A DNA stretch of 33,587 nucleotides from Coriobacteriia bacterium. Lineage in GTDB: Bacteria; Actinomycetota; Coriobacteriia; Anaerosomatales; SLCP01. Location: NCBI GenBank assembly GCA_014859265.1, contig JACUUN010000017.1, positions 1-33,587 of the forward strand, written 5' to 3'. A model generated the notes under the pieces. The model was not told where the DNA came from. It worked only from the letters and a program-made list of their open reading frames with translations, and ran no database searches. The stretch's first letter is position 1; every line of letters begins with the position of its first letter. Shown here one piece after another: positions 180 to 28,813 of the stretch. The position numbers were made by a program, and so were the translations under genes.

Positions 180-1274
180 TTACTCTTCTGTCCAGTCGAA
201 CCTCGTCTTGAGGTCGTTCATGTGGCTGAATGGGATGATCTTCTCGCGCTGCAGACGGCCGACCACGATGCTTGGCGCGATTCCCACCTCGTCGGCAAAT
301 GTCATCACACGTGCCTTGCTGAGACGACTGTGCTGTGACTTGAAGGCCGCCCACCTGTCGGGCGGTACCAGGAAGTCGGCGGTGAATGCGTTCGCGCGCT
401 CCTCGGCGATCGAGTCGCCGTTCAGGTCCGAGATCCCGCCGCTGCGGCGCTTGTCCAGCAGCAGGTGTCCGGCCTCGTGGAAGAAGCTGAACCACAGCTG
501 GTCGTCGGTCTTGTAGCGCAACCCAAGTTGGATCACCGCGCGCGTACGGCTTGCCCACCAGCTCACAGCGTGACACCGGGTCTTGGGCAGATCGGGCACG
601 GACACGACCGCGACACCCGCAGAAGCGCACTGCTCGATCATCAGGGGTTGCCAGTACTCAGGAGCCGTGCGTGTCGCTGAACGCAACTCGCTCAAGACGG
701 CACGGAAGGTTGACTCGGTGAATGGCTCGGTGCGGATCTTCTCGGCCGCACGCTCGCCCGCGCGCAGCCATGCGGTGAGGGCGGGTGTCTCTGCTGTGTA
801 GGCCGTGCTCATTCGTGCTGCGAGACGCTTGTCCGACGCCCAGTAGTTCTGGTAGGCCGCGATTGAGGAGACGCCGAAGTAGGAGAGCAGCTCCTCGGCT
901 TGCTCGGCCGGACTCGTCTCCCGTGCTATCCAGCCCCGAGACCCCATCTCCCTGAGAGGGAATGACCTGACCCACTCGGTCTGTTCCGCGTGCTCGTCTT
1001 CGCGGCGGGTCCGAGCAAGAGCATCACGGTAGATCGACTCCCAGTTGTTCCACACAGACGACGGCACACCAAGGACGCGCTCCAACTCGATGGCGGTCTC
1101 GTACGAGAGCGAGGCCTTGCCGTTGATCAGCTGGCTCACGAACTTCTCGGTTCTTCCCAGACGCAGCGCGAAGTCAGCCTGAGTGATGCCGCGCTCATCC
1201 AGAATCTCGCGAATCTGCTCACCAGGTGCGATCGGGGTGTCTGCGCGAGCACTGTAGCGGTACTCATTCGCCAT
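180..1274 (-). CDS. XRE-family HTH protein fused to an ImmA/IrrE (COG2856-type) metallopeptidase domain; HigA-like antitoxin/regulator
   Basis: N-terminal HTH 'ERGITQADFALRLGRTEKFVSQLINGKASLSYETAIELERVLGV'; zinc-peptidase motif 'FFHEAGHLLLDKR' and 'AEERANAFTADFLVP'. Confidence 0.88.
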   Translation of the reverse strand: MANEYRYSARADTPIAPGEQIREILDERGITQADFALRLGRTEKFVSQLINGKASLSYETAIELERVLGVPSSVWNNWESIYRDALARTRREDEHAEQTEWVRSFPLREMGSRGWIARETSPAEQAEELLSYFGVSSIAAYQNYWASDKRLAARMSTAYTAETPALTAWLRAGERAAEKIRTEPFTESTFRAVLSELRSATRTAPEYWQPLMIEQCASAGVAVVSVPDLPKTRCHAVSWWASRTRAVIQLGLRYKTDDQLWFSFFHEAGHLLLDKRRSGGISDLNGDSIAEERANAFTADFLVPPDRWAAFKSQHSRLSKARVMTFADEVGIAPSIVVGRLQREKIIPFSHMNDLKTRFDWTEE

Positions 1275-1440
1275 GGTAGTCGGTCACCTCCAGGATGATG
1301 ATCTCGGTCACCGCACTCCAGTCGAGGCGGCCGTCTTGAGGGATGTAGACCGCGAAGAGGTGGAGCGCGCCAAGGCGCTGATAGCGTGATGCCCATGGCG
1401 CGGTTCTAACCCGCGCATCCAACGCGCCAAAGGTGAGAGG
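1264..1440 (-). CDS. Small ORF (about 52-58 aa) overlapping the start of the XRE-ImmA gene; candidate toxin, or C-terminal remnant of one
   Basis: Manual translation: (PLTFGA)LDARVRTAPWASRYQRLGALHLFAVYIPQDGRLDWSAVTEIIILEVTDYHGE*. No ATG; possible TTG start at 1422; in-frame TAG at 1441-1443; stop overlaps the downstream ATG region. Not in the supplied ORF track. Confidence 0.4.
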   Translation of the reverse strand, partial: PLTFGALDARVRTAPWASRYQRLGALHLFAVYIPQDGRLDWSAVTEIIILEVTDYHGE

Positions 1441-1575: not shown

Positions 1576-1609
1576 ACACACTATATTGTCAATTGACAAT
1601 ATAGTGTGT
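1576..1609. promoter_or_regulatory. Perfect 34-bp palindrome ACACACTATATTGTCAATTGACAATATAGTGTGT; probable operator in a divergent promoter region
   Basis: Base-by-base reverse-complement match centred at 1592/1593; contains TTGACA on both strands; lies between two divergently oriented units, each with an HTH protein. Confidence 0.7.
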
Positions 1610-1639
1610 GTGACGATATCCTGCGAGAAGGGGGCAGAA

Positions 1640-1927
1640 GTGGTGCCCCGAGACAGGCATCCGAATCGGCACGTCGAGGAAGCGCTGCGGTACGCAGAGA
1701 GCAAAGGGTGGCGGGTAGAGCCTGCAGGACGCAGCTCGCATGCATGGGGCAGGCTGTACTGTCCGCACAACAATCCCGAGTGTCGGTGTGGGCAACACTG
1801 CGTGTCGAGCATCGCGTCCACGCCCAGAGTCCCCGAGGATCATGCGAGACAGATTGTTCGCAGGGTCGACGGATGCATTATTGACGCAGACCTGCCGGAA
1901 GGAGGAGTCAACCGTGACGAAGTATGA
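1640..1927 (+). CDS. Small HicA-reminiscent Cys/His-containing protein, putative toxin of a two-gene cassette
   Basis: GTG starts at 1640/1643 preceded by GAGAAGGGGG. 'EEALRYAESKGWRVEPAGRSSHAWGRLYCPHNNPECRCGQHC...STPRVPEDHARQIVRRVDGC'. The ORF track starts upstream at TTG 1586, inside the palindrome. Confidence 0.65.
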   Translation: MVPRDRHPNRHVEEALRYAESKGWRVEPAGRSSHAWGRLYCPHNNPECRCGQHCVSSIASTPRVPEDHARQIVRRVDGCIIDADLPEGGVNRDEV

Positions 1928-2441
1928 GTACACGCTGCGCTTCGCCCTTCCGACTGCGAGCACCGACATGGACGCTGTTGCGGATACTCTGTATGGCAGC
2001 GGATGTGATGACGCGCTCGTTGGAATCGGCCGACCGGGCAGTGTTGCACTCGACTTCACGCGAGCGGCACCTTCGGCTCGGGAAGCCATGATGAGTGCTA
2101 TCTCCGATGTGACCCGTGCGCTGCCGGGAGCAACCCTCATCGAGGCTGCACCCGATTTTGTCGGGATCACTGACGTTGCGGACATCGTCGGCTGCACCCG
2201 CCAGAACATCCGACAGCTCATGGCCTTCGGTTCGTCCCGAGTTCCTGCCCCTGTGTGCGAGGGGAGGCCGGCTCTGTGGCATCTCTCAGCCATTCTGAAA
2301 TGGCTCGTCGCAGAGAAGCGCTACCAGGTTGACGCAGCCTTGCTCGATCTTGCCGACACCACGATGCGCGTGAACCTGGCCCTGTGCGCCTTGCAGGCGG
2401 AACCGGAACTCGAGGACGACCTGAGGGCCCTCCTCGCGTAA
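1914..2441 (+). CDS. HTH DNA-binding protein, putative cognate antitoxin/regulator
   Basis: GTG 1914 with GGAGGAG upstream; overlaps the previous gene by 14 nt. HTH-like 'GITDVADIVGCTRQNIRQLMAF' followed by 'ALWHLSAILKWL'. Confidence 0.7.
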   Translation: MTKYEYTLRFALPTASTDMDAVADTLYGSGCDDALVGIGRPGSVALDFTRAAPSAREAMMSAISDVTRALPGATLIEAAPDFVGITDVADIVGCTRQNIRQLMAFGSSRVPAPVCEGRPALWHLSAILKWLVAEKRYQVDAALLDLADTTMRVNLALCALQAEPELEDDLRALLA

Positions 2442-26395: not shown

Positions 26396-28813
26396 ATGCC
26401 TAAGGTTCTCACAAACGCAAGACCCGAGCTGCTCGCGCCTGCCGGAGGACCCGAGTCACTGCGCGCTGCGGTCAATAACGGCGCCGATGCGGTCTACCTT
26501 GGTGTGGACCGGCTCAACGCGCGGCGAGGAGCCGAGAACTTCACACTCGACAGTCTCCGGAAGGCGACCCGCTTCGCGCATCTGCGCGGCGTAAAGGTCT
26601 ATCTGACCGCCAACGTCGTAATCCGGCCTTCCGAGATGGGGGAGGCGCTCTCCCTCGTCGACGAGGCATGGGCGAGCGGGGTCGATGCGATTATTGTTCA
26701 GGATCTCGGGCTTGCCCGTGCAGTCGCGCTAGAGCTGCCAGAGGTGCGATTGCACGCATCGACGCAGATCAACGCGCACAACACGGCTACCATATCGGAG
26801 CTTGACCGGCTCGGCTTCTCGCGTGTGACGCTGGCCCGGGAACTCTCGCTCCCGGAGATAGAGGAGATTGTGCGGGAGGCCCCTGTCGAGGTCGAGATCT
26901 TCGTGCACGGCGCACTCTGCTTCTGCTACTCGGGCCAGTGCCTGCTCTCCTCGGCGGTCGGCGGGCGCTCGGCCAACCGGGGCATGTGTGCCCAGCCGTG
27001 CCGCCTGCCCTACGAGCTGCTCGACGAGAAGGGCAAGCACCTCGAGACGCCCGGACGTTACCTACTGAGTCCCCGTGACCTTGCTGCGGTCTCGCTTCTG
27101 CCGCGGATCGTCTCGGCGGGCGTGAGCGCGCTGAAGATCGAAGGCCGGATGAAGAGCCCGGAGTACGTTGCTATCGTCACTGGCGTCTACCGCGCGGCGC
27201 TGGACCGGGCACTTGCCGATCCGGAGGGATTCGAGGTGACCGAGGCCGAACTCGACGCGCTCGCCGGAGCGTTCAACCGGGGGTTCACGACGGGCTACCT
27301 TGACGGTATCCGCGACCATCGGCTGATGGGATACGACCGGCCGAACAATCGCGGCGTGCCCGTGGGGCGTGTGACCGACGTCGTGGAACGGGCGGCGATC
27401 GTGGCGTTCGAGAAGGCGGTCGAGACTGGTGACACGCTGGAGTTCTGGACGAGGCGCGGGCGTTTCGGCCAGAAAGTCGGGGCGCTTACGGTCGATGGCA
27501 ACGAGCGCCCTGTGGCCCCGGTCGGATCGCGTGCGAGCATGCGGGTCGACAAGTCCGTGTCCGCCGGAGACCGGGTGTTTCGGGTGGCGAGCGCGGCGCT
27601 CGAGAACGCTGCTCGGCGCACATTCGTGCCGGAGGACGCCGGCCGCACGGTGAAGACACGCGTGAGCGTGCGCGCGCTCGTGGGAGAGCCCCTCGAGATA
27701 GCGATCGGGGCGGGAGAGCATCGCGGTGTCGCTTGCGGCCCCGCGCTCGAGCCCGCCCGCACCAAGCCGCTTACGGCCGCCGATATCACCGAGCACGTCG
27801 GCCGCCTCGGGGGGACGCCCTTCGTCGCTGAGGCATGGGACATCGAACTCGGGCCGGACGCTGGCGCGGGCTTCTCATTACTGCACCGGGTACGCCGGGA
27901 AGCGGTCGAGGAGCTCGAGCGTTCGATGCTCGCGGCCTACGACCGGCGTACGCCATCCCATCCGCAGCCTCAGGCTACGCGTGGGCCGGGCCGCACCGCC
28001 CGTTGCGACATGCCCGATCTCGTCGTGTGGACGACGCGTCTCGCCACGGCGAAGGCGTGCCTTGCAGCGGGCGCCCACCGGGCGATTGTGCCCGCGTGGG
28101 CCCTCGAGCATGATGCCGAGGTCTTCTCCAGGGTTGCGGTCGAATTCAAACACATGGTGAAGAACCGCGAGGTCGGCTGCGCGCTCGCAAAGGCACGGCC
28201 AGGACGCGCGCTTGTTGTCGGCAACCTCGGTCTCGTGCGCCCGGCTGCGGAAGCGGGCGCCGACGTTTGGGCGCACTGGGGGTTGAACGCCGTCAACCCC
28301 GGCACGGTGGCAGTGCTTGCGGAAGCCGGGGCAGGGGGCGTGTGGCTGTCTTCTGAGGTGTCGGGCTGGGAGGTGGCGACGATCGTCGCCACCTCGAATG
28401 TTCCCACAGGTATAGCGATCCTGGGCCGACAGGAACTCATGGTGACCGAGCATTGCGTGCTGATGTCGTCCGGGCCCTGCTCGCAGCGGTGCGGCACGTG
28501 CACCCGCCGAGAGCGCTGGTATGCGCTCCGCGATCGGAAGGGCTACGGCTTCCCCGTGATCAGCGATGCCGAGGGCCGCTCGCACATCTTCAACGCAATA
28601 CCGCTCGACCTTACCCGCGCGCTGCCGGAGATACTCGAGGCGGGTGTCGCGGCGGTCCGGCTCGACTTCACGGTGGAACACCTGCAGATGGCCCAGAGCC
28701 TCACCCGTCAGGTCCGCGAGGCCCTCGAGTCCGCCATCGCGGGACACCCGCCTGTTGCCGATGCGCTGCTGGAGCCGGCGACCGCCGGTCACTTCTTCCG
28801 CGGGGTACGCTGA
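26396..28813 (+). CDS. U32-family peptidase (DUF3656-type, RlhA/YegQ-like)
   Basis: 'PELLAPAGGPESLRAAVNNGADAVYLGVDRLNAR', 'FVHGALCFCYSGQCLLSSAVGGRSANRGMCAQPCRLPY'. Upstream alternative ATG at 26363. Confidence 0.87.
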   Translation: MPKVLTNARPELLAPAGGPESLRAAVNNGADAVYLGVDRLNARRGAENFTLDSLRKATRFAHLRGVKVYLTANVVIRPSEMGEALSLVDEAWASGVDAIIVQDLGLARAVALELPEVRLHASTQINAHNTATISELDRLGFSRVTLARELSLPEIEEIVREAPVEVEIFVHGALCFCYSGQCLLSSAVGGRSANRGMCAQPCRLPYELLDEKGKHLETPGRYLLSPRDLAAVSLLPRIVSAGVSALKIEGRMKSPEYVAIVTGVYRAALDRALADPEGFEVTEAELDALAGAFNRGFTTGYLDGIRDHRLMGYDRPNNRGVPVGRVTDVVERAAIVAFEKAVETGDTLEFWTRRGRFGQKVGALTVDGNERPVAPVGSRASMRVDKSVSAGDRVFRVASAALENAARRTFVPEDAGRTVKTRVSVRALVGEPLEIAIGAGEHRGVACGPALEPARTKPLTAADITEHVGRLGGTPFVAEAWDIELGPDAGAGFSLLHRVRREAVEELERSMLAAYDRRTPSHPQPQATRGPGRTARCDMPDLVVWTTRLATAKACLAAGAHRAIVPAWALEHDAEVFSRVAVEFKHMVKNREVGCALAKARPGRALVVGNLGLVRPAAEAGADVWAHWGLNAVNPGTVAVLAEAGAGGVWLSSEVSGWEVATIVATSNVPTGIAILGRQELMVTEHCVLMSSGPCSQRCGTCTRRERWYALRDRKGYGFPVISDAEGRSHIFNAIPLDLTRALPEILEAGVAAVRLDFTVEHLQMAQSLTRQVREALESAIAGHPPVADALLEPATAGHFFRGVR

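Follow-up and report, generated by a model that had tools for sequence, protein, structure and literature searches.

At the left end of the window, by which we mean the whole 33,587-nucleotide stretch of Coriobacteriia DNA analysed here, two gene modules point away from each other across a short seam, and a perfect palindrome stands just upstream of the rightward module:

180-1274, minus strand: XRE-type helix-turn-helix (HTH) plus ImmA/IrrE (Peptidase_M78) protein, related to the B component of PD-lambda-2 (Pfam and PADLOC matches)
1264-1335, minus strand: C-terminal remnant (about 24 codons) of a HigB-like partner, recognised from intact homologues in relatives
1336-1471: seam of 136 bp between the two modules, with no blastn match in the loci compared
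1576-1609: 34-bp perfect palindrome, probable PDC-M06 operator (core plus lineage-specific palindromic arms), from its self-complementarity and the conservation of its core
1585-1600: putative operator core ATTGTCA-AT-TGACAAT (family consensus GGTTGTCA-NN-TGACAACC), conserved 5' of M06A
1593-1622, plus strand: promoter predicted by sequence match (-35 TTGACA at 1593-1598, 18-bp spacer, -10 TATCCT at 1617-1622)
1640-1927, plus strand: M06A (PDC-M06A), 95 aa (PADLOC E=1.3e-36)
1914-2441, plus strand: M06B (PDC-M06B), 175 aa, presumed autorepressor (PADLOC E=7.2e-66)

The sequence ACACACTATATTGTCAATTGACAATATAGTGTGT, at exactly 1576-1609, is its own reverse complement (17 pairs with no loop), and no other perfect palindrome without a loop in the window is as long; the runner-up, GAGGTGGCGACGATCGTCGCCACCTC at 28370-28395, has 26 bp and 13 pairs. 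From base composition a 34-bp palindrome would be expected by chance about 1e-5 times per window and 7e-4 times per 2.34-Mb genome. As an initial annotation of this DNA had described, the site is AT-rich in GC-rich surroundings (10 G/C in 34, or 29%, against 66% for the window) and carries TTGACA on both strands, at 1593-1598 on the plus strand and 1587-1592 on the minus strand. That annotation also had the palindrome facing a divergent XRE-ImmA unit. The divergent orientation is correct; however, M06A starts 31 bp 3' of the palindrome whereas the XRE-ImmA start codon (1274) is some 300 bp off, and since the HigB-like remnant and the seam intervene, the description is true only in a loose sense.

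Both proteins of the rightward cassette strongly match the PADLOC models for the two components of PDC-M06, a phage-defence candidate whose function in defence is presumed. The PDC series consists of unpublished candidates from Payne et al. 2021 (according to PMC11811056), and a full-text literature search for PDC-M06 found no paper. M06A is modelled as an alpha-beta-beta-beta-alpha protein (pLDDT 77), and its His34 and Cys residues are invariant in the alignment. This topology and the invariant His34 would fit the HicA fold with its catalytic His, but a PDB fold search gave no significant match, M06A has no Pfam match, and the Pfam and NCBIfam HicA and HicB models match neither M06A nor M06B at E<=1; identity with HicA by fold was thus not obtained, and the label "HicA-like" given by the initial annotation is unproven. 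M06B is modelled with higher confidence (pLDDT 91.6) as a ferredoxin-like N-terminal domain, a winged HTH (residues ~82-137) and C-terminal helices. The N-terminal model has the order beta-alpha-beta-beta-alpha-beta and its structure matches are to ferredoxin-like domains only, and not to a HicB-type RNase H-like domain. In sequence pattern and in weak matches the M06B HTH resembles those of the AlpA/MerR type: it is weakly similar to the AlpA structure 8c3t (E=0.11), and the protein matches a PHROG family named 'excisionase and transcriptional regulator' (1.4e-21). Its relatives in SSU5 and Cyrano are annotated as excisionase/regulator or as HicB. M06B differs from AlpA/excisionase-type phage regulators in having the extra ferredoxin-like domain and an operon partner, M06A. 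On the far side of the cassette (2441-2652), about 1 kb that separates M06B from a GNAT acetyltransferase fragment in the related locus L010 is missing from the window.

M06 loci were gathered by protein similarity alone from genome contigs, whole-genome searches, plasmids and phages, and a core was counted as present at 12 or more of its 14 positions, a match that we estimate to arise by chance at roughly 1e-3 per locus. By this measure the core GGTTGTCA-NN-TGACAACC lies 5' of M06A in 132 of 156 loci, at a near-constant distance from the gene. Core and cassette occur together in three phyla (Actinomycetota, Pseudomonadota and Cyanobacteriota), and on a cyanobacterial plasmid (L123) the core is exact; the initial annotation's view that the palindrome controls the cassette next to it gains support from a core that stands just upstream and travels with it. 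When one mismatch was allowed, 25 of 28 M06 genomes had a single core site, two had none and one, a Janthinobacterium, had two, which belong to two M06 copies that each have their own palindrome with different arms. A global M06B regulon is unlikely because there is essentially one site per genome. The source genome has a single exact core site; a further core-like site with one mismatch, ATTGTCATTTGCCAAC, was seen at G000:C26:31328-31343. The nearest relatives of the window cassette (L006 and L010; M06B 86% identical) keep only the 16-bp core, with 8 pairs against 17 in the window, which shows that an M06 locus can do without the full 34 bp. Most viral contigs in which the exact core occurs have no M06, and their copies look like chance matches.

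Some observations count against reading the core as an operator. A good core is missing in 24 of the 156 loci, largely divergent members of the family, and two SSU5-type elements (L122 and L125) have a different inverted half-site, GTTGAC..GTCAAC, upstream. These two and a third, L121, are SSU5-type phages or phage-plasmids in which divergent M06-like pairs, annotated as HicA/HicB or excisionase, lie close to replication genes. At many Pseudomonadota loci (L066, L031 and similar ones) M06 lies directly 3' of a tyrosine integrase gene, which suggests that these are mobile islands.

The predicted -35 box, TTGACA, sits in the right half of the core, 5' of the GTG start of M06A. This hexamer is perfect in 113 of 123 unique M06 operators, and in 89 the best -10 match stands at a 17-bp spacer. 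Thus the candidate operator overlaps the predicted promoter of the M06 operon, whose -10 box is 17-18 bp past the -35. The leader implied by the predicted start is very short (~10 nt here and shorter in Pseudomonadota), which again counts against an operator. We nevertheless read the palindrome, with a probability of about 0.85, as the autoregulatory operator of the two-gene PDC-M06 cassette, overlapping its -35 box, because the core and its position are conserved, a promoter appears to be embedded in it, it is nearly unique in each genome and the operon encodes an HTH protein, and also because the core was not found at relatives of the XRE-ImmA gene. Most likely a symmetric dimer of M06B, with or without M06A, would bind the 16-18-bp core and block RNA polymerase at TTGACA-18-TATCCT; the cassette would in this way repress its own expression, in the manner of toxin-antitoxin operons and many defence operons, until phage infection or an imbalance of M06A lifted the repression. 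That M06B is the protein that binds, that it represses rather than activates, and that either of these events releases it, we infer from the sequence.

In its layout the site is like the operators of type II toxin-antitoxin operons (HicAB, YefM-YoeB and MazEF), where a short palindrome also lies over the promoter and the HTH protein is the product of the second of two genes; negative autoregulation is presumed for M06. The M06 site differs from them in being a single extended dyad, with outer arms that remain complementary although their sequence varies, and the M06 proteins cannot be recognised as belonging to those families. If the assignment is right, an unstudied and widespread defence candidate gains a simple diagnostic operator, and since this occurs in three phyla and is nearly unique per genome, regulation of PDC-M06 becomes directly testable.

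Outside the 18-bp core, column conservation falls yet arm complementarity continues. We compared 80 clusters of M06 loci (<75% identity) with shuffled sequences; the resulting z-scores are indicative, as shuffling removes relatedness only in part. Arm pairs 10-13 contain 155 Watson-Crick pairs where 90 are expected (z 8.5) and arm pairs 14-18 contain 146 where 101 are expected (z 5.3), and pairs 19-24 show no excess. All four Watson-Crick pair types are used, and sliding the partners by 1-3 bases abolishes the excess. Arm lengths are bimodal, at 8-9 or at least 12 pairs, with about one third of the loci, the window included, in the longer class. Among 26 loci whose M06B proteins are linked at >=92% identity and have the recognition-helix region in common, the arms are nearly all different and are mostly palindromic for 12-19 pairs, and the loci L069 and L070, whose M06B DNA is identical over 450 nt, have arms that differ by one compensated pair. 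No clear arm extension was seen in three control sets, namely 85 other palindromes in the same loci, 30 CIRCE operators and 14 exact-core copies outside M06, in the last of which pairs 10-13 are paired at 0.34 against 0.76 at M06. Mismatches of the G-T and A-C kinds are about equally frequent in the arms (22:17 in 123 loci; an apparent G-T excess of 17:8 in a smaller set of 77 loci shrank to this), and the lack of a clear preference points to DNA rather than RNA. The symmetry of the arms outside the core is real and needs no fixed sequence, and flanks that are free in sequence yet self-complementary are an unusual property in an otherwise ordinary kind of site. The covarying arms, like the M06 operator itself, appear undescribed in the literature searched. 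Coevolution of the arms with protein specificity is unlikely, since near-identical M06B HTH regions have different arms, and hypervariability of the arms under diversifying selection was rejected, for arm divergence (~0.49) is no higher than that of the far-upstream flank (0.50).

These findings fit either a dispensable structural selection or event-driven template switching, and both of these add to the operator reading rather than compete with it. The idea that the arms are a by-product, with replication template switching at the short, permanently conserved hairpin copying arm onto arm into perfect palindromes that later decay, is one that we hold tentatively and at somewhat less than even odds. 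That template switching can homogenise the arms of inverted repeats is documented (PMC8604942, PMC7202029), and the bimodal lengths and decay cases such as L072/L187 agree with it; the absence of clear extension from the same-locus palindromes, the CIRCE operators and the non-M06 cores speaks against it. That the arms are selected as a DNA structure, a cruciform or single-stranded hairpin read by M06B, M06A or supercoiling, so that the extended dyad would supplement the conserved core with a structural input, strikes us as rather unlikely. Its evidence is the pairing excess at pairs 10-18 in register and in all four pair types, the different and still palindromic arms beside near-identical M06B proteins, the compensated pair of L069/L070, the lack of a G-T preference, which points to DNA, and the predicted single-strand fold of the window palindrome (-17.6 kcal/mol, z=-5.8). 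Against this are the bimodal lengths, since the many loci that end at 8-9 pairs indicate that the extension is dispensable. Still more doubtful, in our estimation, is a new kind of operator made of an 18-bp recognition core and arms selected for self-complementarity alone. Were it true, the second signal would be a cruciform or hairpin and not a sequence, and the defence cassette would have a structural switch responsive to phage or to supercoiling. The question raised is whether operator flanks are selected for DNA structure alone, or whether conserved operators drive template-switch mutation locally.

Two other accounts would replace the operator. One is that the palindrome is a transcription terminator or an mRNA hairpin (an attenuator or the RNA target of a toxin), as a strong stem just 5' of a start codon might suggest. 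This is very improbable: we found no match to an intrinsic terminator (a G+C-rich stem followed by a T run) at the palindrome, and an Rfam search there returned no family. With the -35 box inside the stem, transcription is predicted to begin beyond it, and the larger set of 123 loci shows none of the wobble enrichment expected of an RNA element.

The other, put forward in the initial annotation, is that M06B and the divergent XRE-ImmA regulator share or compete for the palindrome as a cross-regulated double switch, and it bears on what the left-hand module is. The XRE-ImmA protein matches Pfam HTH_3 (7e-11) and Peptidase_M78 (1.9e-6) and the PADLOC model PD-Lambda-2_B (1.9e-35), so that the gene and the tail of a HigB-like A gene beside it resemble part of the PD-lambda-2 defence system (Vassallo et al. 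2022, PMC9519451). Searches of other genomes in this order gave ten XRE-ImmA relatives, most of which (e.g. L093 and L096-L100) have an intact upstream HigB-like gene of ~112-125 aa. Their own operator, TTTACCnnnTCGGTAAA, lies 5' of that gene and is exact in six; in L093-L100 the motif is often repeated there. No palindrome comparable to that of M06 was seen at the XRE-ImmA relatives, which carry TTTACCnnnTCGGTAAA instead. In the window TTTACCnnnTCGGTAAA was not found, and a search of the source genome at up to 2 mismatches gave one weak match elsewhere only. By blastn, 190-1335 matches the XRE-ImmA relatives, with DNA homology stopping at ~1335, and 1472-2476 matches the M06 relatives L006/L010 (83.6%). 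The modules also occur apart: in the same family there are genomes with XRE-ImmA but no M06, and in the same genus one genome has M06 and its operator core beside an unrelated Fe-S protein gene, with no XRE-ImmA. The double switch is thus least probable of all, for although the palindrome lies between two divergent HTH genes and has TTGACA on both strands, no promoter-like match was found on its minus strand, the relatives' operator is missing, the HigB-like gene is truncated, the homology breaks at 1335/1472 where the seam joins the modules, and M06 stands beside an Fe-S gene elsewhere, which together leave a two-regulator model unsupported.

The XRE-ImmA unit is instead a broken PD-lambda-2-like remnant that is not part of the switch. 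Compared with PD-lambda-2 itself, its A component is truncated, with the N-terminal part and its own operator gone, and it is not connected with the palindrome; no C component was seen before the contig end (the contig starts at window base 1). Besides this remnant (1264-1422 and 180-1274), the source genome has a second short XRE-ImmA fragment, at C36:851-1015, which is 89% identical to residues 309-363 of the XRE-ImmA protein.
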